Origin: Anaerolineaceae bacterium
GTDB taxonomy: Bacteria; Chloroflexota; Anaerolineae; Aggregatilineales; Phototrophicaceae
Length of the DNA: 64,000 nucleotides
Direction of reading: 5' to 3'
Assembly (NCBI GenBank): GCA_002699585.1
Contig: PABP01000004.1
Location: forward strand, 62,001-126,000
The first letter of the stretch is position 1, and the number at the start of each line of letters is the position of its first letter. The translations under genes and the position numbers were made by a program. Under the pieces are notes generated by a model, which saw only the letters and a list, made by a program, of their open reading frames with translations, had not been told where the DNA came from and searched no databases. Positions 13,536 to 25,396 of the stretch are shown in pieces.

Positions 13536-14828
13536 TTACTCATTTGTTGGCAGCAGCGGCGCAATGAGTTCAGCAGCGTCGGCCATGGCTTCTTCTGCAC
13601 TCTTTTGCCCAGTAATCGCCAGAACAACTTGCTCCTCAAAAATATCTGAGGCGCGGGATTGCTCATCAAAGGCAGGCCAATCTGGCTTTGCGACCAGGAG
13701 CGACTGAGCAGCAGCGTCAACCCATGCGGCATTCACTTCAGCAAATTCGGGGTCTTCATAGACCGAGAGTTTGGTCGGTGCGTTGCCGTTACGGGCCATC
13801 TCAGTGGCAGCCATATCCGACGATAGGAACTTGATGACTTCCCAGGCTGCTTCTGGATCAGCCGAGTTAGCGGGGATCGACATTGACCAGAAGGAAGCAT
13901 TCCCCGGGGCGAGGTCGAAGTCGACGGTTTCTGATGCCGGAACAGTTGTCACACCAATCTGGCCGACGACCTGCGAAGCTTCGGGGTCATTCAAGTTGCT
14001 GTAGTACGTCGGACCACGAACAGCAAAGGCGACCTGGCCATTTTGTTCCAGGGTAAGCCAGTCATCGGCAACCAGGTTCATGAAGTCCGGCGGGATCACG
14101 CCTTCTGCGTAGAGTTCTGCAGCTTCGTTGATAGCCTGAATCATGGGTTCTTCAGTAAAGAGAATATCGAAGTCACCAGAGAGCAGACCACCACCGTAGG
14201 CACGGGCACCAAGGATCACGCTGCTGGGTTCAAAGCGCATGCCATAGATGCGGGCGCCATCATCACGACGGCCAGCGATAGCAGTGGCATCAGCAATATA
14301 TTCTTCCCAGGTTGAGGGCGGCTCCGCAATGCCTGCTTCTTCCAGTAGGGCCGTGTTGTAGAACAGCACCGGACCGTAGGCACGCATCGGAATACCATAG
14401 ATATTGCCTTCGGAATCGCTCACGAAGCTGAGCATACCCTCAGCGATGCCATCAAAGTTTTCGATGGGGTCGGATTCAAGGAAATCATTAAGGGGCATGA
14501 GCTGGTTGCGAACCTGTGGCGAGTACTGCTGGCTAATCAGGAACATCAGGCTGATGTCGCTGTCTGCCAGCGCCAATTCACGAACGGTCCGTTCGAGAAT
14601 ATCCGGCCAGGGTTGCGTTTCCCACACGAGAGAAATTCCGGTGGCTTCAACAAGATCAGGACTCAGATCTACTTCGGCACCAGCACCACCAATCACTGCA
14701 GACTCATGAACAGGATGGCTCATCACCTTGATTTCGGTGGTGTCATCTTGTGCCAAGGCACCTGCGGTAATCAGGAGGAAAACGGTAAGAAGGAGAAAGA
14801 AGAGTCTATGTGAACGCCTAGATAGCAT
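13536..14828 (-). CDS. sugar ABC transporter solute-binding protein (family 1)
   Basis: 430 residues. An N-terminal signal peptide (MLSRRSHRLFFLLLTVFLL, cleavage near GALAQD) leads into a family-1 extracellular binding protein with segments MPLNDFLESD, PPSTWEEYIADA and NGNAPTKLSVYED. AAAGG precedes the start. It is the first gene of the aldolase/FAD-sialidase operon, so its ligand should be what those enzymes process; a carboxylated sugar is a guess. Upstream lies a candidate regulator site at 14896-14914. Confidence 0.92.
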   Translation of the reverse strand: MLSRRSHRLFFLLLTVFLLITAGALAQDDTTEIKVMSHPVHESAVIGGAGAEVDLSPDLVEATGISLVWETQPWPDILERTVRELALADSDISLMFLISQQYSPQVRNQLMPLNDFLESDPIENFDGIAEGMLSFVSDSEGNIYGIPMRAYGPVLFYNTALLEEAGIAEPPSTWEEYIADATAIAGRRDDGARIYGMRFEPSSVILGARAYGGGLLSGDFDILFTEEPMIQAINEAAELYAEGVIPPDFMNLVADDWLTLEQNGQVAFAVRGPTYYSNLNDPEASQVVGQIGVTTVPASETVDFDLAPGNASFWSMSIPANSADPEAAWEVIKFLSSDMAATEMARNGNAPTKLSVYEDPEFAEVNAAWVDAAAQSLLVAKPDWPAFDEQSRASDIFEEQVVLAITGQKSAEEAMADAAELIAPLLPTNE

Positions 14829-15191: not shown

Positions 15192-15530
15192 ATGCTATCA
15201 TCGACCTTAGCGCGTGAAATTTGCGAAATGGAAGCCGATCTTTGCTCTGCGTTTTCCGACCCGAATCGCATCCTTATCCTCTACGCGCTCAACGAAAAGC
15301 CCCTCAACGTCAGTGAAATCACAGCTGAGTTAGAAATCCCTCAATCAACAACATCGCGTCACCTCAAAATTCTACGCGATCGTGGACTGGTGATTTCAAG
15401 TCGCCAGGGCACAAGTGTTGAGTACCGCTTGTCAGACCCGCGTTTGATTGATGCACTCGATGTATTGAGATCTGTTTTACGTGACCGGATTGCTCGTCGT
15501 GCCAACCTGATGGACGTTGCTGACGCCTGA
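15192..15530 (+). CDS. ArsR-family winged-helix regulator of the redox operon
   Basis: 112 residues from ATG 15192 (MLSSTLAREICEMEADLC). The helix-turn-helix is LNVSEITAELEIPQSTTSRHLKIL and the wing is GLVISSRQGTSVEYRL. It has only two cysteines, C11 and C18, spaced Cx6C in the first helix; the usual metal box ELCVCDL in helix 3 is absent, as is the helix 2/helix 5 cysteine pair of SqrR/BigR persulfide sensors. It is first in the plus-strand operon with sulfur-transport and redox genes and probably represses it through the 15148-15167 repeat. Sensing of sulfide, persulfide or a thiol is inference. Confidence 0.88.
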   Translation: MLSSTLAREICEMEADLCSAFSDPNRILILYALNEKPLNVSEITAELEIPQSTTSRHLKILRDRGLVISSRQGTSVEYRLSDPRLIDALDVLRSVLRDRIARRANLMDVADA

Positions 15531-15574
15531 CCTGCAATTCTGCCTGGATTACTTCTTCTTTTTAGGAGGCATGA

Positions 15575-16453
15575 ATGCCATTTAATAAAATATCTTCTCT
15601 ATCGTTCATGACTGGGCTGACACTGCTGGTCATGGGTTTTGGTTTGTTATGGGCAACGCCGCAGACTGTAGAGGCCCAGTGCGGATCTCAGGCGTCATCC
15701 TGCAAAAATTGTCATGAAGTTCAGGGGGAGCTGCCTGTAAACAATGATGGAAACGGTTGGCACGAGTCCCATGCATTTGGGGATTTTTGTTATATGTGCC
15801 ATGCGGGCAACCCCCAGGCAACCGAAATTGATGCGGCGCATACGGGCATGGTCGCTCCTTTGTCCGATGTCAACGCAGCTTGCCAACAGTGCCACGCTGC
15901 TGATCTCGATGAGCGTGCACAGGTCTATGCTGCACTGCTGAATGTGGACTTGAACAGTGGCGATGGCGGTTCTACTTCGACAGACATAAGCGGCGGAACT
16001 ACAGAAACAACCGAAGAAACCACAACCTCCGCTGAGCAACCCGCCTCAGAAACGAGCGTTGTCCAACCCTCAGCCTCCACAACCGTATTTGAAACAGAGC
16101 TTGTGGTCGATGATCCTAACATGATCGACTATGTCGCGCGTTATGACGAAATCGTATTGGGCATACGCCCGACCAATTGGGGTAATGTCATTCTCAGTGT
16201 GATGATTGGCTTGCTGGTCGTGGCTGGCGGTGGCTTCGTCCTGATTAATGAAATTCGCCTCAATACCAGGCTTGGTGACACCCAACCCGTCGATGGCGAA
16301 TATCCTTCTGACGTGGTCGAGATGCTGCCGGCGCTGGCATCACTCAAAATACAGACACGTAACGCCTTGAGAAAAGTCCTCACTCATCCCCACAAAGCTG
16401 ACAAAGTGCTCGGCCTGATTGATGAAGTCGTATCCGAAGAAGGGGACAAATAA
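15575..16453 (+). CDS. membrane-anchored trihaem c-type cytochrome
   Basis: 292 residues. AGGAGG lies five bases before the start. A signal peptide ends near VEAQC, followed by three haem sites CKNCH, CYMCH and CQQCH within about 90 residues. A Ser/Thr/Glu-rich linker (about residues 130-175) leads to one membrane helix (VILSVMIGLLVVAGGGFVLI) and a cytoplasmic tail of about 65 residues. It is therefore an extracytoplasmic electron carrier tethered by a C-terminal anchor. As the first structural gene before the YeeE pair and the molybdoenzyme, it probably exchanges electrons with that complex; this is inference from position. Confidence 0.85.
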   Translation: MPFNKISSLSFMTGLTLLVMGFGLLWATPQTVEAQCGSQASSCKNCHEVQGELPVNNDGNGWHESHAFGDFCYMCHAGNPQATEIDAAHTGMVAPLSDVNAACQQCHAADLDERAQVYAALLNVDLNSGDGGSTSTDISGGTTETTEETTTSAEQPASETSVVQPSASTTVFETELVVDDPNMIDYVARYDEIVLGIRPTNWGNVILSVMIGLLVVAGGGFVLINEIRLNTRLGDTQPVDGEYPSDVVEMLPALASLKIQTRNALRKVLTHPHKADKVLGLIDEVVSEEGDK

Positions 16454-16458
16454 CCATC

Positions 16459-17004
16459 ATGAAGCAAATCATTAGCTATATTCGCCGCGAAGAGTGGTCA
16501 CCCTATGTTGCAGGCACCCTGCTCGGCGTCGTCGGTATCCTGGCCGTGTGGATGAGCAACAGCCTGCTTGGCGCATCTGGCGCTTTTGAAAATCTGGTCG
16601 GGTTAGCAGGGCAGGCTATCGCGCCCTCGCTCTTTGACAACATGTATTTCAACTACGTCATGCCACCTGGCATTACCTGGGGTGTGGTTTTGCTCGTCGG
16701 GTTATTTTTTGGTGGCATGCTCGGCGCAGCCACCAGCGGCACCCTCAAATGGGGCAAAAAAGGTTCCGCTAACAGCGATGACCAGTGGAAGAGCATCTTT
16801 GGCCCGCAAATCTGGAAGCGCTGGCTGCTAGCTTTTGTCGGCGCCATCATCCTCGAATACGCTGCCGGGATCGCCGGGGGATGCACCAGCGGACTCGCCA
16901 TTTCCGGCGGAATGCTCCTGGCCCCATCAGCTTTCCTGTTTATTGCCGGGATGTTCGCATCCGGCATCGTGACCGCTTACTTGATCTACCGCAAGAGGTA
17001 CTAA
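16459..17004 (+). CDS. YeeE/YedE-family sulfur transporter half (first)
   Basis: 181 residues with about five membrane helices and the family hallmark GGCTSGLAISGG near residue 140. YeeE/YedE proteins take up thiosulfate in the one characterised example (TsuA), via conserved cysteines in GxCxxG-type motifs. Here the family is split into two proteins encoded side by side with a 4-base gap. They probably act as a pair. Next to a molybdoenzyme of the polysulfide/thiosulfate reductase family, uptake of thiosulfate or another sulfur species is likely. Confidence 0.85.
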   Translation: MKQIISYIRREEWSPYVAGTLLGVVGILAVWMSNSLLGASGAFENLVGLAGQAIAPSLFDNMYFNYVMPPGITWGVVLLVGLFFGGMLGAATSGTLKWGKKGSANSDDQWKSIFGPQIWKRWLLAFVGAIILEYAAGIAGGCTSGLAISGGMLLAPSAFLFIAGMFASGIVTAYLIYRKRY

Positions 17005-17008
17005 CCGC

Positions 17009-17560
17009 ATGTCAACTTATGTGATTGCACTATTCCTGGGCGTTGCTTTCGGTTTCTCGCTGAATAAAGCGGGCCTGACCAAGTACCACAAGATCGTCAA
17101 TGTGTTCCGCTTTACGGATATGGCGGTACTCAAGTTCATGATGACCGCGCTGGTTGTCTCCATGAGTGGCTTGTATTTGCTACGCGGCCTGGGACTCGTC
17201 ACTTTCCCGGCCCCCCCAGCTACCTATATTGCTGGCAACATCATCGGCGGCCTGATCTTTGGCTTCGGCATGGCCCTCAGTGGCTACTGCCCAGGCACCT
17301 GTGCCGCTGGTAGTGGCGAGGGCAAACTCGATTATTTGATCCCCGGATTGCTCGGCTTTTTTGTCGGCGCAGCTATCTATGGCCTGACATACCAGCAAGT
17401 TTTCCCGCTGATTTCAAATATTGCCAACGAAGGTAACGTCGTCATCCCGGATTTATGGAATCTCAGCCCGCTGCTGACGGTGCTCTTCTTTGCTGTGATG
17501 TCCTTCTTCCTGTTCTACTTGATTGACCGTGCTGGTTTGCAGCGCAAAAAAGAAATCTAG
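17009..17560 (+). CDS. YeeE/YedE-family sulfur transporter half (second)
   Basis: 183 residues, five hydrophobic segments, with the signature GYCPGTCAAGSGEGK near residue 95. This is the DUF6691-like partner of the preceding gene. Two cysteines in this motif (CPGTC) are candidate sulfur-relay residues. It lies 4 bases after its partner and 56 bases before the molybdoenzyme, so it belongs to the same transcription unit. Confidence 0.85.
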   Translation: MSTYVIALFLGVAFGFSLNKAGLTKYHKIVNVFRFTDMAVLKFMMTALVVSMSGLYLLRGLGLVTFPAPPATYIAGNIIGGLIFGFGMALSGYCPGTCAAGSGEGKLDYLIPGLLGFFVGAAIYGLTYQQVFPLISNIANEGNVVIPDLWNLSPLLTVLFFAVMSFFLFYLIDRAGLQRKKEI

Positions 17561-17616
17561 CCAGTTCTAGCTCATGACAATCGGTGAAGACCGACATCTA
17601 AAGACTGGAAATTCTA

Positions 17617-19797
17617 ATGATTGACTCTTTTTCACGACGTAGTTTCTTAAAAATGGGGGCGGTTACGACGGGCGCACTCGTCGTTGGCGAGTTTCTGCCG
17701 CCCGCAGTGGCCCAAATGGCCACAGAAGCCGGAATGCTTAATGCCAGCGGTGATGGCTATATCCCTAGCATGTGCGAGATGTGCGTTTGGCGCTGCGGCC
17801 TGATTGCGAAAATTAAGGGTGGCCGCGTCGTCAAACTTGATGGTAACCCGGAACACCCGCATTCAAGAGGCCATCTCTGTGTGCGCGGTCAATCTGGCCT
17901 GATGAACACCTATGATCCCGACCGCGTGCTTAAGCCCCTCATTCGTGTGGGCAAACGCGGCGAAGGCAAGTTCCGTGAAGCATCGTGGGACGAAGCGCTC
18001 GACCTGACTGCTGGCCATATGCAGCGCATCAAAGACACCTACGGGCCGGAAGCAATGGTCTTCTCGTCCACCCATAACCTGAGCCAGGTCCAGTTCGAGA
18101 ACTTGCTCTATGCCTTCGGCTCGCCTAATTACGGCACCCAGCGCAGCCTGTGCTTCAACGCCATGATCGTCGCTAACCAGATGACCTATGGCATGGAAGA
18201 ACCGGAGCGCATCTATGATGACCAACTGCAATATGTCATCCTGACAGGCCGTAACCTGTTTGAAGCCATTTCGACCTCGGAAACAGGCGACCTCAGCGAT
18301 GCGATCTCACGCGGCGTCAAAGTTGTTTATCTCGATCCGCGCTTTACCAAAACCGCTGCCAAAGCCAGCGAATGGCTTGCGATCAAACCCGGTACAGACC
18401 TGGCTTTCCATCTGGCGCTGCTGAATGTCATCATCGACGAAAAGCTGTATAACGCTTCTTTCGTTGAGGATTACACCATCGGCTTTGATGAACTCGCGCA
18501 GGAAGTTCGGGACTTCACACCGGAATGGGCAGCTTCGCTCACCGAAATACCGGCTGATACGATCCGTCGTATTGCACAGGAATTCGCTGCCGCTGCACCA
18601 CATGCGCTGGCGCATAATGGTTGGCGTACATCCAACTTCATCAACTCCTTCCAGACCCAACGTGCCATCAGCATCCTGAATGCACTGGTTGGCAACTGGA
18701 ACGTCACCATGAAAGCATCAGCAGGCGAGTCCAGCGGGGCGCTTGGTACACCACCGCAGCCCCCGTACCCTCGTGCTTCTGCGATGCGGCTGGATGGCGT
18801 TCCCTATAAGTATCCGGTCGTCCCCTTTAAGCTCGGTGTTTTCCAGGAACTGCGCGACAACATCGTCACGGGTGATCCATACCAGGCACATGGTTGGTTC
18901 ATCTCGCGCCAGAACCCGGTGATGTCGCTGCCGGATCGCGCGAAGACCCTGCAAGCCTTCGAGAAAATGGACTTCATCGCCACCGTCGATATCTTCCTGA
19001 ACGATACCGCCTGGTTCTCCGATGTCGTGCTGCCGGAAACCTCCTATCTGGAGCGCTACGATCCGCTGTTGCCGGTTGGCAATCGTGTATTCCTGCGCCA
19101 ACCCGTGATTGAACCGCAAGGCGATGCGAAATCCGCATTATGGATCTACAAACAACTCGGTGAACGTCTCGGTCTGGAGGATTATTTCCAGTACACGGAC
19201 GAAGAAGACTACATCCGCCAGCAGCTAGAGCCACTCGGTGTGACACTCGACGAAATTCGCATGAATGGCTATGTCGACTTGCCGGAGTCTGAAGAGGAAG
19301 AAGAGCCTAGCTTCGCCTGGAATACGCCCAGCGGCAAAATCGAACTCTTCTCGGACACGCTCGATAGGGTAGGTTTCCCAGGTGTACCGACATGGCAAGC
19401 GCCACCGCAGCCGCCGCAGGGCCAATTCTATCTGCTGACGGGTAAGGTCGCTCAGGCCACCCAATTTGCCACCCAGAACAACCAGCTTCTGAAAAAGTAT
19501 TCTGATGAACCCCGCTTGTGGCTCAATACCACCGTCGCGGAAGATCGCGGCATGGAAGACGGTGATTGGGTCGAAGTTACCAGCCAGGTGGGCCAGGTCC
19601 ACATTCGTCTGAAGGTGACCCAGGGTATCCGGCCTGATTGTGTTTATCTCACTCCCGGCTTTGGTCACCTGTCCAAAGGCTTGACCGCCGCCTATGGGGT
19701 CGGCGCAAGCGACTCTGCTTTACATGTAACCTATACCGATCCCGCAAGCGGCAGTCAGGCGCTCAGCCAGACTTTCGTAACGGTCAGGAAGGCATAA
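17617..19797 (+). CDS. molybdopterin oxidoreductase catalytic subunit, PsrA/PhsA-like, Tat-exported
   Basis: 726 residues. The twin-arginine signal RRSFLKMGA directs folded export. The proximal 4Fe-4S site is C53, C56, C60 and C88 (CEMCVWRC then LCVRGQSG). C179 in the segment GTQRSLCFN is in the place of the molybdenum-ligating cysteine of the thiosulfate/polysulfide reductase group. Bis-MGD-binding elements include GSPNYG, EWLAIKPGTDLAF and the C-terminal dinucleotide-binding domain (LLTGKVAQATQFATQNNQ). With the FeS and NrfD genes directly downstream it forms a quinone-linked periplasm-facing complex. Direction (sulfur compound reduction or oxidation) and exact substrate cannot be read from sequence; tetrathionate or arsenate relatives are alternatives. 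Confidence 0.9.
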   Translation: MIDSFSRRSFLKMGAVTTGALVVGEFLPPAVAQMATEAGMLNASGDGYIPSMCEMCVWRCGLIAKIKGGRVVKLDGNPEHPHSRGHLCVRGQSGLMNTYDPDRVLKPLIRVGKRGEGKFREASWDEALDLTAGHMQRIKDTYGPEAMVFSSTHNLSQVQFENLLYAFGSPNYGTQRSLCFNAMIVANQMTYGMEEPERIYDDQLQYVILTGRNLFEAISTSETGDLSDAISRGVKVVYLDPRFTKTAAKASEWLAIKPGTDLAFHLALLNVIIDEKLYNASFVEDYTIGFDELAQEVRDFTPEWAASLTEIPADTIRRIAQEFAAAAPHALAHNGWRTSNFINSFQTQRAISILNALVGNWNVTMKASAGESSGALGTPPQPPYPRASAMRLDGVPYKYPVVPFKLGVFQELRDNIVTGDPYQAHGWFISRQNPVMSLPDRAKTLQAFEKMDFIATVDIFLNDTAWFSDVVLPETSYLERYDPLLPVGNRVFLRQPVIEPQGDAKSALWIYKQLGERLGLEDYFQYTDEEDYIRQQLEPLGVTLDEIRMNGYVDLPESEEEEEPSFAWNTPSGKIELFSDTLDRVGFPGVPTWQAPPQPPQGQFYLLTGKVAQATQFATQNNQLLKKYSDEPRLWLNTTVAEDRGMEDGDWVEVTSQVGQVHIRLKVTQGIRPDCVYLTPGFGHLSKGLTAAYGVGASDSALHVTYTDPASGSQALSQTFVTVRKA

Positions 19798-19801
19798 GCT
19801 C

Positions 19802-20605
19802 ATGGCACACACTTTCCATACGCCGCGTTACGGTTTTTTGATTGATGCCTCTAAGTGTATCGATTGCCGGACCTGCATGGTGTCTTGCAGCGTAGAGAAC
19901 AACGTCTCGATGGAGACAACGCGCATCTGGATTAAAGAGACGGGCGTCACTGGGACATTCCCCGACCTGTCGCGCTATACTGCACCCTATCATTGTATGC
20001 ATTGTGTTGACCCATCGTGCGTGTCGGCCTGTACAGTCGGGGCGCTCCAACGCACTGAAGACGGCATCGTCATGTACGACAATGAAATCTGCATTGGCTG
20101 CCGTTACTGCATGTACGCCTGCCCGTTTGACGTCCCCAACTACGAATGGGAGGAACAACTCCCGCTCGTCGTAAAATGCGATATGTGCTTCTCCCGTCTG
20201 GAAGAAGGCCAGCAGCCTGCTTGTGCCCAGACGTGCCCAACAGGGGCCATTCAATTCGGCAAGTATGAAGACATGCGCGCACTCGCGCACCAAATGATTA
20301 ACGAAAATCCTGATAAATATGTCGATCATGTCTATGGCGAAGAAGAAAATGGCGGCACGGCAACGTTGTATATCTCACCTGTTCCATTTGAGGAATTGGG
20401 CTTCCCGATTGCAGGCACGACCTCACCAGCTTATTCCAACCGTCTGGTGACAGAAGGCACGCCGCTGGTGGCCGGGGCTATGCTGGTCGGGCTGTCCGGC
20501 GCTTACCTGACGATCAAAAACGAAAAAGAAGAAGCTGAAGAAGAGCGTCGGCTCGCTGAGCAGGAGAAAGTCGCTGTCGGAGAGGAAAATAGTCATGCTT
20601 CGTAA
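19802..20605 (+). CDS. four-cluster ferredoxin subunit, PsrB/NrfC-like
   Basis: 267 residues with four 4Fe-4S sites: CIDCRTCMVSC, CMHCVDPSCVSAC, CIGCRYCMYACP and CDMC-11-CAQTC. This is the electron-wire subunit of the PsrABC/NrfCD class. A hydrophobic segment near residue 225 (LVAGAMLVGLSGAYL) followed by a highly charged Glu/Lys/Arg tail suggests an extra membrane tether, as in some HybA-type proteins. There is no Tat signal, so it likely travels with the catalytic subunit. Its last 11 bases overlap the NrfD gene. Confidence 0.92.
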   Translation: MAHTFHTPRYGFLIDASKCIDCRTCMVSCSVENNVSMETTRIWIKETGVTGTFPDLSRYTAPYHCMHCVDPSCVSACTVGALQRTEDGIVMYDNEICIGCRYCMYACPFDVPNYEWEEQLPLVVKCDMCFSRLEEGQQPACAQTCPTGAIQFGKYEDMRALAHQMINENPDKYVDHVYGEEENGGTATLYISPVPFEELGFPIAGTTSPAYSNRLVTEGTPLVAGAMLVGLSGAYLTIKNEKEEAEEERRLAEQEKVAVGEENSHAS

Positions 20606-21785
20606 ACTGGTTCATGAACTCACCACGCTGCCAAAATATATCTACGTCTTTGCAGCGATTACCGCCTTTGGCCTCAGCATTGGGATCTACCGTATGTATG
20701 CTGGCTTGGGCGTAACCACCAACCTCAGCAAAGCGTTCCCCTGGGGTATCTGGATCAGCTTCGATCTGGCGACAGTGGCGTTGTCCGGTGGGGCATTTAC
20801 GTTGGCAGCACTGGTCTATGTCTTGCATTTTGAAAGTCTACACGCCGCGGTGCGCCCGACGGTGCTTGCCGGGTTACTGGGCTATAGCTCAGTGCTGGTC
20901 ATCCTCCTGTTTGACCTGGGCCGCTGGGATCGCTTCTATAATGTGTTTTTCCATCCCAACTTTAGCTCCGCACTTCTGGAGGTCAGTTGGTGTATCGCTG
21001 CCTATTCATCGATCCTGTTTTATGAACTCAGTCCCGTGCTGTTGGAAAATTCGCGCTGGCGGCGCTTCCTGCCTGTCATCAAAAAATACACCATCCCGAT
21101 TGTGATTGCTGGCGTTACGCTCTCAACGATGCATCAGTCCTCATTGGGCACGATGTTCGTCATCATGTCGCCGCGCTTGCATCCGCTGTGGTACTCCATG
21201 ATCCTGCCGATTTTCTTCCTGGTGAGTTCTTTAGCTGCGGGTATTTCGCTAGTCATCGCTGGGGCGACCATCAGCTATTGGCTCTTTGGTCGCAGCCTCA
21301 AGATCAAAATTCTGGCGAAATTAGGCTGGTTCCTGCCCTGGCTACTCAGCTTCTACCTGGTGCTGAAGTTCGGCGAGCTGCTGATCGCTGGCGAGCTGGA
21401 CTTGCTGTTCTCCAGTGGCACCTATAGCGTCCTGTTCTGGGCGGAACTCATCATTGGTTTCTTCATCCCGATTGGATTGTTCGCTCTCAAACGGGTGCGG
21501 ACGAGCCGTAAGGCATCCTTGTTCGGTGCGCTCATGATTATGGCGGGCGTGATCCTCAACCGCTTTGACGTGACCTGGTTCGGCATGAACCCCGTCGACG
21601 GTGAGACATACGCCCCGCACTGGATGGAAGTGGCTATTCTGGTCGGTGTTGTCGCTGGGATTATCACGGTCTACAGTCTGGTCGCTCGTTACTTCCCGAT
21701 CTATGAAGAAACCGAGTTATATCGTCCTGAGCGGCCAGTCAATGAACTGTCGCGCCTGGAACGAGCGCCTGCAAGTGGTGACTAG
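20595..21785 (+). CDS. NrfD/PsrC/HybB-type integral membrane quinone-reacting subunit
   Basis: 396 residues with about ten membrane helices, longer than minimal NrfD and closer to HybB/ActC length. Recognisable elements are the opening YIYVFAAITAFGLSIGIYRMYAGLG and the helix pairs around FPWGIWISFD and SPRLHPLWYSMILPIFF. The family exchanges electrons between a membrane quinone and the adjacent FeS subunit. A GAGAGGA ribosome site lies within the end of the FeS gene, so the two are translationally coupled. It completes a PsrABC-like module. Confidence 0.9.
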   Translation: MLRKLVHELTTLPKYIYVFAAITAFGLSIGIYRMYAGLGVTTNLSKAFPWGIWISFDLATVALSGGAFTLAALVYVLHFESLHAAVRPTVLAGLLGYSSVLVILLFDLGRWDRFYNVFFHPNFSSALLEVSWCIAAYSSILFYELSPVLLENSRWRRFLPVIKKYTIPIVIAGVTLSTMHQSSLGTMFVIMSPRLHPLWYSMILPIFFLVSSLAAGISLVIAGATISYWLFGRSLKIKILAKLGWFLPWLLSFYLVLKFGELLIAGELDLLFSSGTYSVLFWAELIIGFFIPIGLFALKRVRTSRKASLFGALMIMAGVILNRFDVTWFGMNPVDGETYAPHWMEVAILVGVVAGIITVYSLVARYFPIYEETELYRPERPVNELSRLERAPASGD

Positions 21786-21828
21786 CCAATAACCTGCCAA
21801 AATGACGGATTTGTTGTAATCTTAGCGC

Positions 21829-22863
21829 ATGCGTCCAAACTTTTTTCATCATTTGCACCCACCTACGATTCCGGCTCAACAGTCCCGCTGGCGCTATACA
21901 CTAGGCGCTGGCGGGACCGCTGTTTTCCTGTTGTTCGTGTTGGCAATCACCGGCATGTTGGAGATGTTTTACTATACGCCCACGCCGGAGCAGGCCGCGC
22001 TTTCTGTCCAGACCATTAGCTATCATGTGCCCTTGGGTGGACTGGTCCGTAATACGCATTACTGGTCTGCCCAACTCCTGATGATCGTGATGGCTGCGCA
22101 CCTCATCCGTGTGGTCATGACTGGGGCCTATCGCTCGCCGCGCCGCTTCAACTATCTGCTAGGGCTGGTGCTGTTTGTTGCGGTTGTATTGCTCAACTTC
22201 ACCGGGTATATCCTGCGTTGGGATCAAGGCATCCAGTGGGCACTGGTGGTCGGGACCAATCTGCTCAAGACGATCCCCGTAGCAGGTGACGCGCTTTATG
22301 TCATGCTCATTGGGGGTAGCCAACCCGGCCCCGCCACGCTGATTCGGTTTTATGCGTGGCATATCTTCGGCCTGGGATTGCTCGTTGTCATCCTCACGGG
22401 CTGGCATATTTTCCGGGTACGGCGTGATGGCGGCATTGCCGTTCCGCCGCCGCGCCTGCGTGAAGATGATGCCCGTATCACGCGCTTTGAACTGGTCCAA
22501 CGTGAAGTGCTGGCCATGATTCTGATCACGGCTATTCTATTCATTTTGGCGATCTTTTTTCCTGCGCCCATTGACGCGCCCATTGAGCAGCTTACGACGA
22601 TGGCCAACGACGCCAGCGCGCCCTGGTTCTTCCTGTGGGTGCAGCAAATGCTCAAATGGGGCGATCCTTTTGTTTGGGGGATTGTGGTTCCACTGGTGGT
22701 CATGCTCATCCTGGCATTGATTCCCTATGTCTTGCCGCAGGCCCAGGATGCTGAATTGGGACGTTGGTTCCCGAAGTCAAACCGCTTGGCACGCCTTGTC
22801 CTGATTGGGATTAGCCTGCTCGTGATTGTATTGACTCTATTGGCACTTTTGCCAGGTTCCTGA
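21829..22863 (+). CDS. cytochrome b (b6-like) with subunit-IV-like C-terminal part
   Basis: 344 residues, about seven or eight helices. Two haem-ligating histidine pairs are visible: HYWSAQLLMIVMAAH (14 apart) and HIFGLGLLVVILTGWH (15 apart). The 14/15 spacing is that of cytochrome b6 rather than mitochondrial-type b (14/14). The C-terminal part resembles subunit IV, but at the expected PEWY quinol-site motif it reads APWF, so the glutamate is missing. A 1-base overlap (TGATG) couples it to the multihaem gene. It probably receives or delivers quinol electrons with the Rieske protein two genes on. Confidence 0.88.
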   Translation: MRPNFFHHLHPPTIPAQQSRWRYTLGAGGTAVFLLFVLAITGMLEMFYYTPTPEQAALSVQTISYHVPLGGLVRNTHYWSAQLLMIVMAAHLIRVVMTGAYRSPRRFNYLLGLVLFVAVVLLNFTGYILRWDQGIQWALVVGTNLLKTIPVAGDALYVMLIGGSQPGPATLIRFYAWHIFGLGLLVVILTGWHIFRVRRDGGIAVPPPRLREDDARITRFELVQREVLAMILITAILFILAIFFPAPIDAPIEQLTTMANDASAPWFFLWVQQMLKWGDPFVWGIVVPLVVMLILALIPYVLPQAQDAELGRWFPKSNRLARLVLIGISLLVIVLTLLALLPGS

Positions 22864-24110
22864 TGCACAATGTTCGCCGTATGACTGCTCTCGCGTCTGT
22901 TTTGTTGCTGCTGTCTGTGCTGCTGGTTTGGTTTGCTGATAGCCGCCGACCGCAATCCCAGGCATTGACGCCCCGCATGACGGGCGAAGAAGAATACTGT
23001 ATCGCCTGTCATACAGACTTGCCCGAAATTAGCCCTTCGCACCCGGTCGAAATTTTTGGCTGTGTGACCTGTCATGGCGGCGAACGTTTGGCGCTGGATG
23101 CTGACCTGGCCCATAGCACCATGCGCGGCGGCAACAACCCATCGAACTTGAGCGTGGTCGAGCAGTCCTGCGGCGGTAGCGACTGTCACAGTGGCACTGT
23201 GGAAGAAGAACGCGATCATATCCAGCGCGTGATGACCAGCGTCCAGGCCACCTACACCGGGGCCATTGCCCATATTCGCTATACGTTCGGTGCCCAACCG
23301 GATCAGGTGGCGCACTACGGCATATTCAATGTGCGTGATACCGAAGTTACGACATCGACGGGCGTCCAATCTTTAGAAGCCTTCGACCCCTCGCAGGAAA
23401 CCAATCCATCGATCCAGACCTTTGGGGAAACTTGCCTCAAGTGCCACCTCAGTGCGGAGCCACCTGAGGGCGCGGCTTTTGACCGTCTGACGGGCTGTGC
23501 CGCCTGCCATACGCCCGATGTAGATAGCTTCCCAGAAGGCAATGTCCACCAACTGACGACGGCCATTCCCTATACGCAGTGCAATACCTGCCATAATCGC
23601 GGCAATTACGACCTGCGTTCCATGGACTTTGTCGAGCGTGATGATAACCCGACGGATCGCTTCCACGATTATTACCAGCCGATTGCGCAGTTTACGCAGT
23701 GCGAGTGGACCCTGGATTGTATTGATTGCCATACTCGTTCGGAAGCGATGGGTGATGGGGATATTCATTCCAATCAAAGCGAAATTCAGTACGTCCAGTG
23801 CCGTACCTGTCACGGCACCCTCGACGAATTGCCCCTGACGCATACCATCGCCAGTGAGGATGACATCGCGCTGAGAATGGCCTTCCTGAACCCGGTCGTC
23901 AACCTGAGCGTAGGCGATACAGTTCTGGTGACGGAGCAGGGGGAACCTCTGTGGAATACGCGCGTGTTGTCTGATGGCACCTATGAGCTTGTGGGTAAAG
24001 CGACCGGGCAAGTCTTCTCATTTAGCCCGGTGATGGGGACGCAATGTACGCAAAACGCCGATGAGCAGGAATCCAGTTATTGCCATGTGTGCCATGCGGT
24101 GGACCGTTGA
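22863..24110 (+). CDS. extracytoplasmic multihaem c-type cytochrome (8-9 haems)
   Basis: 415 residues with an N-terminal hydrophobic signal/anchor (LASVLLLLSVLLVWFA). Eight CxxCH sites are visible (CIACH, CVTCH, CLKCH, CAACH, CNTCH, CIDCH, CRTCH, CHVCH) plus one unusual Cx4CH (CGGSDCH), so eight or nine haems. Spacing is uneven, with a stretch of about 100 residues (roughly 105-200) free of sites. It takes the place where a bc complex would have cytochrome c1. I do not recognise a characterised octahaem enzyme in it. It probably links the cytochrome b/Rieske part to the molybdoenzyme or to an external acceptor (inference). Confidence 0.85.
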   Translation: MHNVRRMTALASVLLLLSVLLVWFADSRRPQSQALTPRMTGEEEYCIACHTDLPEISPSHPVEIFGCVTCHGGERLALDADLAHSTMRGGNNPSNLSVVEQSCGGSDCHSGTVEEERDHIQRVMTSVQATYTGAIAHIRYTFGAQPDQVAHYGIFNVRDTEVTTSTGVQSLEAFDPSQETNPSIQTFGETCLKCHLSAEPPEGAAFDRLTGCAACHTPDVDSFPEGNVHQLTTAIPYTQCNTCHNRGNYDLRSMDFVERDDNPTDRFHDYYQPIAQFTQCEWTLDCIDCHTRSEAMGDGDIHSNQSEIQYVQCRTCHGTLDELPLTHTIASEDDIALRMAFLNPVVNLSVGDTVLVTEQGEPLWNTRVLSDGTYELVGKATGQVFSFSPVMGTQCTQNADEQESSYCHVCHAVDR

Positions 24111-24158
24111 GAGATGTTGCTGCGACTGCCAGAAATGATGAGGTTAATCTAACGACTG

Positions 24159-24575
24159 ATGCCTGAACTTGATCGCCGTGATTTTCTAAAACAAGCTACC
24201 CGTGCCTTGTTGTCTATCAGTGGATTGCTTGGCCTGGGCGGTTTAGCGCGTTTTTTCTACTTCCAGACGGAGCCACCCAGCCAGTCCGTGTTTGACCTGG
24301 GGCCTGCGACTGCCTATGCAGTCGGTACACGGACCTTGCTGCCGGATGTTCCGGCGGTTCTAATCCACAATGAAAACGGATTCTCTGCACTGAGTTTGGT
24401 GTGTACGCATCTGGGATGTACCGTAGAATCCGAAGCTAGTGAACTGGTGTGCCCCTGTCATGGCTCACTCTTTGATGAACAGGGCAATGTGGTGCGCGGA
24501 CCAGCCAGTAAACCCTTACCCACGCTCCAAATAGAAACCACCGCCGAGGGCAATCTTCAACTCTTTTTGACCTGA
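24159..24575 (+). CDS. Rieske 2Fe-2S protein
   Basis: 138 residues, shorter than bc1 Rieske proteins and similar to small b6f-type ones. An N-terminal [14 protein letters not shown] twin-arginine signal-anchor precedes the cluster motifs CTHLGC and CPCHGSLFD. These supply two cysteine and two histidine ligands. It is the last gene of the plus-strand operon and with the b6-like protein forms a quinol-oxidising bc-type unit. The preceding gap is 48 bases; no clear terminator is seen between it and the convergent FmdE-like gene. Confidence 0.92.
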
Positions 24576-24604
24576 AGCTACCTGGTACTCACGCCATATA
24601 TTAG

Positions 24605-25216
24605 TTAGTGCGATACAAGCTCATATTTATCTGTTGTCTGTTGATAATAGGCTTCGCCAAGGCAGGCAGGGCATACAGGTTGTTCATCGACGATTTCCTC
24701 GCGCTCATTGAGGACTTCTTCCCCGCAGCGTGAACAGATTACGCGCAGGCCCGGTTTGCTGATGATTTCCTGCATAGAAACCGTTAGTTCCACAGGTTGC
24801 CAACCCAGCAACTTGTCATTGGGCAAGCTTTGATAGCCAATGAGTTGCGCCTTCCAGTTGCTTTCCTCATGAGGGTGTGCTTGCTCGGCGAAGCGTCGTG
24901 ATTCCGGATGTGGCCAGATACGTATCGCTTCAGCTGTGTCGGTATCAACGAACGTCGCCGCCACGCGGCCATAATCCATCAGTCGCATTGTACGATGGCC
25001 TAACCAGCAGCCACTTGCCACCGCAACACCATCGGCAAAGCAGCCATCTGTTTCGACAAAGGCGAACAAACGCTTATCATCTTGGGGTAAATCCAGATTC
25101 AAAATTTCACCCGCCAGCATGCCCATCCGTACCCCAAGCACCTGCCGGGGACATAGATGATTATGTAGCGCGATTGTTTTATTTAAGAGTGCATCCAGAC
25201 TCAATTTCATTGCCAT
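24605..25216 (-). CDS. FmdE-like protein with C-terminal zinc ribbon
   Basis: 203 residues from ATG 25216 (AGGA six bases upstream). The FmdE domain shows HNHLCPRQVLGVRMG and then DGVAVASGCWLGHRTMRLMDYGR, matching the family HGHxCPG...TGC...DYGK layout, except that Arg replaces the usual Gly after CP. A zinc ribbon (CSRCGE near residue 160, CPACLG near 183) closes the protein. FmdE proteins are often encoded beside molybdenum or tungsten oxidoreductases, with unclear roles. The convergent position next to the PsrA-like operon fits that pattern. A role in cofactor insertion or redox sensing is speculation. Confidence 0.8.
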   Translation of the reverse strand: MAMKLSLDALLNKTIALHNHLCPRQVLGVRMGMLAGEILNLDLPQDDKRLFAFVETDGCFADGVAVASGCWLGHRTMRLMDYGRVAATFVDTDTAEAIRIWPHPESRRFAEQAHPHEESNWKAQLIGYQSLPNDKLLGWQPVELTVSMQEIISKPGLRVICSRCGEEVLNEREEIVDEQPVCPACLGEAYYQQTTDKYELVSH

Positions 25217-25396
25217 GCTTGTCCTGCTAACAAACCTATCTTTGAGACTATTGTAAACAGCACTGCTCAGCTCGGTAAGTGATAATAGGCAGCTTATATC
25301 TGGATGAGTGACTTGTCCTCCCCACCCAGCACCTGACGTCATATGGCGCATAATGGGAACGGTAGTGTTTAGCGCGTGTTCAACCTCAGCAGGCTC

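Follow-up and report, generated by a model that had tools for sequence, protein, structure and literature searches.

Gene content and organization of the locus

Anaerolineae, most of them uncultured, are widespread in sediments and sludge. The 64,000-nucleotide stretch analyzed here, referred to as the window, comes from an Anaerolineaceae bacterium (contig PABP01000004.1 of assembly GCA_002699585.1, positions 62,001 to 126,000) and is part of a 6.70 Mb genome in 42 contigs (G000:C18:62001-126000). Within it, a PsrABC-type molybdenum enzyme is encoded beside a b6-like cytochrome b, a Rieske protein and a nonahaem c-type cytochrome, accompanied by a trihaem cytochrome and two YeeE-type membrane proteins. 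Comparison across genomes indicates that the PsrABC half and the b6/Rieske/nonahaem half form one dedicated module and are not chance neighbours.

Gene identities were assigned from reading frames together with Pfam and NCBIfam profile matches. In the frame list, ten genes lie on the plus strand with gaps or overlaps of at most 56 bases. The first encodes an ArsR/SmtB-type regulator (15192-15530; frames, Pfam HTH_5/ArsR, NCBIfam, alignment) and is followed by a trihaem c-type cytochrome, c3 (15575-16453; frames, CXXCH motifs, alignment), and two half-size YeeE/YedE proteins. One of these matches the C-terminal half of Sulf_transp (16459-17004; Pfam, alignment) and the next its N-terminal half (17009-17560; Pfam, NCBIfam, alignment). 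The PsrABC set consists of a PsrA/PhsA-like molybdenum enzyme with a twin-arginine translocation (TAT) signal (17617-19797; Pfam Molybdopterin set, NCBIfam, Protein Data Bank (PDB) relative, alignment), a PsrB-like four-cluster iron-sulfur protein resembling HmcB and HybA (19802-20605; Pfam Fer4_11, NCBIfam, alignment), and an NrfD-family membrane subunit of HybB type (20595-21785; Pfam NrfD, NCBIfam, alignment). The second set comprises a cytochrome b in which a b6-like N-terminal part is fused to an ExtQ-like C-terminal part (21829-22863; frames, NCBIfam, alignment, with a Cytochrome_B match in Pfam), an ExtM-like nonahaem c-type cytochrome (22863-24110; frames, NCBIfam, alignment, with matches to multihaem families in Pfam), and a Rieske protein with the boxes CTHLGC and CPCHGSLFD (24159-24575; frames, Pfam Rieske, alignment). 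An FmdE-domain protein with a TraR-like zinc finger is encoded convergently on the minus strand (24605-25351; Pfam FmdE).

A preliminary description of the window had listed all ten genes and the convergent FmdE-like gene, and frames and Pfam locate each of them at the places given there. Three details needed correction: the NrfD subunit is of HybB/HmcC/QrcD type, as set out below; the FmdE-like frame reaches 25351, the earlier boundary of 25216 being an internal start; and the two YeeE halves, both present, occur in the swapped order, with the C-terminal half first. No terminator was listed by the terminator scan in the 43 bases between the NrfD and cytochrome b genes, where the preliminary description had considered that two separate systems might meet; the scan gave 14 candidates in total against a shuffled mean of 10.0 (standard deviation 3.2), which is within 1.3 standard deviations. 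A 14-pair hairpin at 21882-21917, within the opening codons of b, has the longest stem of the scan, but its T run comes late and is short.

Protein families and cofactor ligands

To assess ligand conservation, MAFFT alignments were made of PsrA (n=61), PsrB (65), PsrC (34), cytochrome b (74), the nonahaem protein (58), the Rieske protein (67) and the trihaem protein (58), the b and Rieske alignments including stand-alone copies. By this measure the predicted cofactor ligands of the ten-gene set are intact. PsrA aligns over its full length with Psr of Thermus thermophilus (2vpw, E 4.5e-137). Its N-terminal 4Fe-4S cysteines (C53, C56, C60 and C88) and C179 are conserved, and C179 aligns with the cysteine of the ‘SLC’ stretch in the T. 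thermophilus protein. The TAT_signal match (E 1.6e-4) scores 21.9 bits, slightly below the Pfam gathering threshold of 22.7, and the best NCBIfam model, PhsA, scores 599.3 bits, below its cut-off of 694. PsrB has 16 conserved cysteines.

The NrfD subunit is of the HybB/HmcC/QrcD type. It is 31% identical to E. coli HybB and scores 264, 246 and 149 bits with the HybB, HmcC and QrcD models of NCBIfam, each below the cut-off. Its residues of HybB/QrcD type for the quinone site and the proton path are conserved: D57, S125, Y97, Y137, E144 and H180 each occur in 33 or 34 of the 34 aligned rows, which cover NrfD types I and II only. In cytochrome b, the haem histidines H77, H91, H178 and H193 are present in at least 95% of the rows, as are the ligand cysteines and histidines of the Rieske protein. 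The window’s cytochrome b contains no cysteine; covalent haem c in a cytochrome b requires one. Its Qo motif reads APWF in 67 of the 74 rows, APWI in six and APWY in one, and PEWY with glutamate at the second position in none. Since bc complexes are reported to vary systematically in this motif (PMC9162462), APWF in place of PEWY would not disqualify the protein from a bc-type complex.

The window copy of the nonahaem cytochrome has eight CXXCH motifs and one CX4CH. The preliminary description had counted eight or nine haems, and nine is the likely number because all nine sites are invariably present in an alignment of 30 sequences, where site 3 takes the form CX2CH, CX3CH or CX4CH. Two further cysteines, C280 and C395, are also conserved. 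The trihaem gene has three CXXCH motifs and no Pfam match, and its product has an N-terminal hydrophobic segment and an extra invariant cysteine (C36); a low-confidence model suggests a further hydrophobic helix close to the C-terminus. Structure models of the nonahaem protein (mean predicted local distance difference test score, pLDDT, 60.2; predicted template modelling score, pTM, 0.45) and of the trihaem protein (63.1 and 0.27) are too weak for fold comparison because of these low values. Single-sequence searches gave no PDB relative of the nonahaem or NrfD proteins at E ≤ 0.1, or of the trihaem protein at E ≤ 1.

The first YeeE half, of C-terminal type, has a cysteine (C142) in 54 of 54 copies, and the second, of N-terminal type, has one (C98) in 48 of 54. 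A sulfane-sulfur-sensing cysteine pair in ArsR was considered and rejected, as a single cysteine, C18, is found in 47 of 48 aligned copies.

Association of the two halves across genomes

A class sample of 396 genomes was searched. PsrA matches at E ≤ 1e-90 occurred in 65, of which 43 with a row of at least 60% identity were taken as orthologue carriers, rows at 33-42% being set aside as paralogues; the nonahaem gene, at E ≤ 1e-40, was found in 42. Both genes are present in 39 genomes from 14 families, with the nonahaem gene alone in three and PsrA alone in four. The co-occurrence has a Fisher p of about 1e-45, uncorrected for relatedness, for which the 14 families are the better measure. The idea of a dedicated, conserved system, raised in the preliminary description, thus holds in this sample. 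The three nonahaem-only genomes are contig cuts, with PsrB and PsrC (L141), a b561-type gene (L140) or a dihaem cytochrome (L139) at the edge, and three of the PsrA-only genomes (G371, G515, G622) have at most 1.6 kb of contig beyond PsrA. Both genes are gained and lost together.

Physical linkage is equally close. Among the 43 PsrA genomes, 28 have the nonahaem gene on the same contig, 2.4-8.2 kb away, and in 14 the contig ends within 4.1 kb. The remaining one, G603, is a true exception: 72 kb of contig beyond PsrA holds no nonahaem gene, while ArsR, trihaem, YeeE, PsrA, PsrB and b561-type genes are retained. The nonahaem gene therefore lies within 8.2 kb of PsrA in 28 of 29 decidable loci, and the possibility that relatives of the two halves are always found apart, which the preliminary description had considered, fails on this count. 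The b/nonahaem/Rieske block is inverted yet adjacent in four genomes (G339, G469, G621, G651) and reordered in three loci (L127, L132, L133); that adjacency holds while arrangement varies makes the association stronger.

A second set consists of 56 public loci retrieved with the b gene, their identity reaching up to 80%. By title, all are of Chloroflexi/Anaerolineae type, taking the genera named in the titles to belong there. The two sets share some genomes (e.g. L001, L099), and their counts are not additive. The order c3-YeeE-YeeE-PsrA-B-C-b-nonahaem-Rieske recurs on one strand in 17 of the 56 loci, several of the others ending at contig edges, which excludes a chance arrangement and answers the call of the preliminary description for a check of gene order. 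The nonahaem gene is beside b in 38 of the 56; where at least 5 kb of upstream sequence is available (26 loci), PsrA is found there in 25. Exceptions to the association are L025, which has no PsrA in more than 5 kb upstream and whose contig ends inside the nonahaem gene, L056, with no PsrA in 4.1 kb, and L039, with no NrfD match in 2.3 kb. The nonahaem gene is absent from 18 public loci, 16 of which have at least 5 kb upstream, and PsrA is present there in none of the 16. Among the 18, the contigs of L048 and L055 stop right after b, so that their nonahaem status is undecidable.

These counts bear on whether two separate systems are merely adjacent. G603, with its Psr part and no nonahaem gene, would fit such a view, as would b-gene relatives that occur alone as c-b fusions. 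The stand-alone b relatives, however, are another form, with PsrA nearby in 0 of 16, and adjacency in 28 of 29 decidable loci, four of them inverted, across 14 families makes mere proximity highly improbable.

The distribution is patchy. In the window’s own family (f1) only G000 and G541 match; G584, the one other member of its genus in the sample, gave none. A whole-collection scan with exact short peptides of one sequence returned Chloroflexota-type titles only, the genome survey itself being centred on Chloroflexota. No plasmid copy of the nonahaem gene was found at E ≤ 1e-10, nor any fusion joining the halves among stop-to-stop frames of at least 200 residues.

A nonahaem protein in the place of cytochrome c1

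The preliminary description had suggested that the multihaem protein replaces cytochrome c1, and the forms of the b gene agree. Among the public loci, an in-frame N-terminal CXXCH stretch is carried by 15 of the 18 b genes without a nonahaem neighbour and by none of the 38 with one; the remaining three are cut, L054 just before b, and L048 and L055 just after it. Because b genes lacking the nonahaem partner mostly carry a fused cytochrome c, the nonahaem protein is judged to occupy the place of cytochrome c1. The tree of b genes does not split cleanly: copies with and without the nonahaem gene are interleaved, with five changes, some of the ‘without’ labels being contig cuts (L048, L055, L121).

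In the stand-alone complex, seen in L016, L041 and 13 more public loci, b carries a fused cytochrome c stretch at its N-terminus and has the Qo motif APWF, and a Rieske gene usually follows. The window genome itself has two further cytochrome b genes (C31, C23), each accompanied by a Rieske gene no more than about 1 kb away.

Fixed and exchanged parts of the module

Different parts of the module follow PsrA to different degrees. Spearman correlations of pairwise identity with PsrA are 0.82 for the nonahaem protein (41 loci), 0.80 for b (40), 0.76 for the trihaem protein (53), 0.75 for the first YeeE half (48), 0.71 for Rieske (40), 0.64 for the second YeeE half (48), 0.47 for PsrB (53) and 0.25 for PsrC (29), and PsrB and PsrC track each other at 0.88; the pairwise comparisons are not independent, and these values are descriptive. 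In eight of 76 mapped loci (L007, L036, L044, L105, L110, L112, L115, L134) a b561-type gene takes the place of NrfD, a label confirmed on L007 by Pfam Ni_hydr_CYTB. On the PsrA tree the adaptor label changes seven times (eight before L102, whose NrfD match is not the module’s, was dropped). PsrBC is thus seen as the exchanged part, occurring with several NrfD types or a b561-type subunit, while the nonahaem, b6 and trihaem proteins track PsrA. For bioenergetics, the module would present a naturally occurring series of quinone-adaptor swaps in one enzyme, with the remainder unchanged.

The b6/Rieske pair, too, can be lost, with the nonahaem and PsrA genes remaining together. In G541 a dihaem cytochrome and a b561-type gene precede the nonahaem gene, and the 2.9 kb past it contains neither a Rieske nor a b gene. 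In G410 and G572 the nonahaem and Rieske genes are kept, the Rieske N-terminus lacking a hydrophobic segment (by eye), and no b gene is found in the available stretch. All three genomes have b genes elsewhere.

Such loci lend some weight to an explanation, compatible with the others, in which the trihaem and nonahaem cytochromes exchange electrons directly with PsrAB in the manner of Qrc, b6 and Rieske being accessory. The nonahaem protein would then persist without b6 and Rieske, or with only a Rieske protein lacking a visible hydrophobic segment, and both cytochromes would be expected to track PsrA more closely than PsrB and PsrC do, as observed. A quinone-type membrane subunit nevertheless follows PsrB in nearly all sufficiently long mapped loci (none was called in L133), and the b gene accompanies the nonahaem gene in 38 of 38 public loci, although these were found via b. 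Direct wiring therefore seems fairly unlikely.

Proposed sulfur chemistry and direction of electron flow

PsrA points to a sulfur function, as do the YeeE halves and a rhodanese lipoprotein. The last occurs in nine of the 76 mapped loci, with four rhodanese domains confirmed on L012: it is divergent beside the module’s ArsR in L012, L014, L034, L044 and L108, near ArsR in L052, L099 and L135, and with a PsrA paralogue set in L120. The YeeE pair is absent between the trihaem and PsrA genes in five loci (L012, L014, L023, L034, L108), four of which have the rhodanese, the fifth (L023) being cut at ArsR.

The explanation that we favour, and to which we give about an even chance, is a dedicated, patchily inherited respiratory module of Anaerolineae-type Chloroflexota that oxidizes sulfane sulfur into menaquinone and has a b6/Rieske/nonahaem outlet. 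A sulfane-sulfur compound, polysulfide or thiosulfate, would be handled at the outer face, and its electrons would pass from molybdenum through the iron-sulfur clusters to menaquinone via an electrogenic HybB-type subunit. The b6/Rieske unit would re-oxidize the menaquinol, and the nonahaem protein would pass them on to c-type carriers, to an oxidase or to an external acceptor. As Chloroflexota have a single membrane, this protein would lie on the outer side of the cell. The YeeE pair may import a sulfur species, either to be used or to be sensed by ArsR. The two quinone enzymes, for which the preliminary description had proposed a functional or physical supercomplex, need not touch, as a shared quinone pool suffices.

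The oxidative direction is the least certain step of this mechanism, and sulfur oxidation is only weakly favoured over reduction. Characterized Rieske/b complexes oxidize quinol. COX1-family genes are present in 42 of 46 carriers, compared with 236 of the 350 other genomes (Fisher p 4.9e-4, uncorrected for relatedness). The positions kept in the module’s NrfD subunit are those reported as important for menaquinone reduction by QrcD and HybB in the accessible parts of two studies (PMC13059093; PMC8076601).

Several points weigh against this reading, besides G603 and the public loci without PsrA or NrfD matches described above. The COX1 enrichment ignores relatedness, and its family, PF00115, also covers nitric-oxide reductases. 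The characterized PsrA/PhsA enzymes closest to the window’s PsrA are reductases, and HybB-type subunits work in both directions. Retention of the nonahaem gene without an adjacent b6 gene (G541, G410, G572) implies that a menaquinol-oxidizing step is not universal. No known downstream route of sulfur oxidation was found, as most tested carriers lack Dsr and none has SoxB: in the 25 of 46 carriers covered by the Sox and Dsr searches, SoxB was above cut-off in none (weaker matches in 13, the best, in G568, with 467 of 550 bits) and DsrA in five, and the window genome has neither above cut-off. Sox and Dsr were accordingly rejected as an explanation of the module. The substrate could also be an oxyanion of selenium or another oxyanion.

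The opposite direction, in which PsrABC reduces thiosulfate or polysulfide with menaquinol and proton motive force while b6/Rieske/nonahaem serves as an alternative menaquinol outlet or as electron entry from outside, is possible, if somewhat unlikely. It is consistent with T. thermophilus Psr as the closest solved relative, with PhsA as the best NCBIfam model (599.3 bits), with dsrA in five of 25 carriers, and with exchange of the adaptor for a b561-type subunit, the kind that PhsC uses. Two menaquinol consumers in one co-inherited module would, however, be an odd economy; COX1-family genes are enriched in carriers; and the residue pattern is that of HybB/QrcD, not of Wolinella PsrC as far as the available sources describe it.

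Neighbouring genes and PsrA paralogues

The FmdE-like gene is a recurrent neighbour of the module, yet is absent from most loci, being called in 18 of 76. In many loci from other families a dihaem c lipoprotein gene separates the adaptor gene from b, and in several a helix-turn-helix regulator with a PocR domain is near ArsR or replaces it (L119-L128, L132, L133, L115 and L117 for the two observations together). A protein with a dinitrogenase iron-molybdenum cofactor (NifX-like) domain is encoded beside or inside the module in L002, L010, L021, L030, L120 and L131 (Pfam on L002). In G541 (L142:1-2962) a MobA-like frame, recognized by eye, lies beyond the nonahaem gene. Directly upstream of the window’s module, on the other strand, is an extracellular solute-binding protein gene (13536-14828; Pfam SBP_bac_1) that is apparently unrelated.

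PsrA paralogues, with about 36-42% identity to the window’s PsrA, include copies with one in-frame TGA at GGAGG[U/C], where others have cysteine. TGA forms are found at L137:773-3037 (plus strand) and L131:2080-4353 (minus strand), and cysteine forms in L122, L063, L064 and L138; T. thermophilus PsrA has a similar AGGC stretch. Nine places have one TGA, its position having been checked in L137 (G417) and one further copy, L131. The TGA-bearing paralogue is likely to be a selenocysteine Psr-type enzyme. In three genomes (G401:C40, G571:C3, G568:C55; loci L120, L122, L131) a paralogue and the main module are no more than about 10 kb apart.

Comparison with known systems

The preliminary description knew of no described operon with exactly this set, and a literature search at the level of titles and the start of abstracts, most subscription journals being outside it, likewise found no published description. 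What appears to be new is the gene set linking PsrABC with b6/Rieske/nonahaem, trihaem and YeeE genes; relatives of each part are known. In cable bacteria, for example, PsrABC, YeeE and a partial complex III occur in one organism and, in the portion of the report available, are not linked in one cluster (PMC13047784).

With PsrABC and PhsABC of Thermus, Wolinella and Salmonella the module shares an exported molybdenum enzyme with an equal domain set and an aligned cysteine position, a four-cluster iron-sulfur subunit and a quinone-type membrane subunit. It differs in a PsrA below the PhsA cut-off, an anchor of HybB rather than PsrC type, and co-inheritance with the b6/Rieske/nonahaem, trihaem and YeeE genes. 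QrcABCD, HybAB of Hyd-2 and Hmc have, in the sources as available, a similar HybA/HmcB-like iron-sulfur subunit and a HybB/QrcD-like membrane subunit with equal functional residues. The module’s proteins fall below all of their cut-offs (QrcB 164 of 440 bits, QrcD 149 of 570), and the catalytic subunit is PsrA-like with the cysteine ligand position kept. Within the YeeE family (PmpA/PmpB, SoxT/TsuA), PmpA and PmpB are likewise two half-size proteins with one conserved cysteine each, and YeeE-like proteins are tied to transcriptional repressors in sulfur oxidizers, according to the accessible text (PMC11582611); the halves here have 181 and 183 residues, compared with about 130 there, and are linked to Psr instead of Sox.

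The b/Rieske/multihaem part has a named relative in the ext cluster of Geobacter, extHIJKLMNOPQS, to which it is related without being a member. As described in the part of the source available (PMC5877670), a b6-type cytochrome (ExtP), an ExtQ-like piece, a Rieske protein (ExtO) and a multihaem cytochrome (ExtM) are grouped, a rhodanese-like gene is included, as near the module in some loci here, and a porin mutant is defective in selenite and tellurite reduction. By contrast, the module has its ExtP and ExtQ parts in one protein and nine haems instead of 12, with PsrABC and YeeE added. Porin ExtI and cytochromes ExtKL were not recognized among recurrent neighbours, most single neighbours being unannotated. 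A selenite, tellurite or other oxyanion substrate, as proposed for that cluster, would suit the matches of cytochrome b, the nonahaem protein and the C-terminal b part to the ExtP, ExtM and ExtQ models, as well as the rhodanese and porin observations. These scores lie far below the curated cut-offs (214 of 290, 141 of 800 and 57 of 150 bits, respectively), and the ext gene list, so far as it is given, contains neither PsrA nor YeeE, so that such a substrate is improbable.

Rieske/b complexes of anammox bacteria (Kuste4569-4574, Kustd1480-1485) are the closest mechanistic precedent. The available part of their description (PMC12954380) gives a b6-like b with a subunit-IV-like part, a Rieske protein, multihaem cytochromes instead of cytochrome f and a second oxidoreductase, with electron bifurcation proposed. 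In anammox bacteria this additional enzyme lies on the cytoplasmic side and is a putative NAD(P) oxidoreductase, whereas the module’s is an exported molybdenum enzyme with its own quinone adaptor; no NAD(P) oxidoreductase subunit is among the window’s eleven genes, and its cytochrome b has no cysteine for covalent haem c. By analogy, PsrABC and b6/Rieske/nonahaem might be one coupled, quinol-bifurcating assembly, in which downhill flow from Rieske through the nonahaem outlet, taking the part of a cytochrome c1, to an acceptor pays for sulfur chemistry of PsrA that would otherwise be unfavourable, or is fed by it, with an exchangeable quinone adaptor between the halves. This sulfur counterpart of the NAD(P) proposal is attractive and quite unlikely. 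The system favoured here, a respiratory module whose defined gene set is conserved, would give Anaerolineae a testable role in the sulfur cycle, possibly with extracellular electron transfer. It would also add a further lineage, beside anammox bacteria and Geobacter, in which a multihaem cytochrome has become the centre of a rebuilt Rieske/b unit, in this case linked to a sulfur-type molybdenum enzyme.

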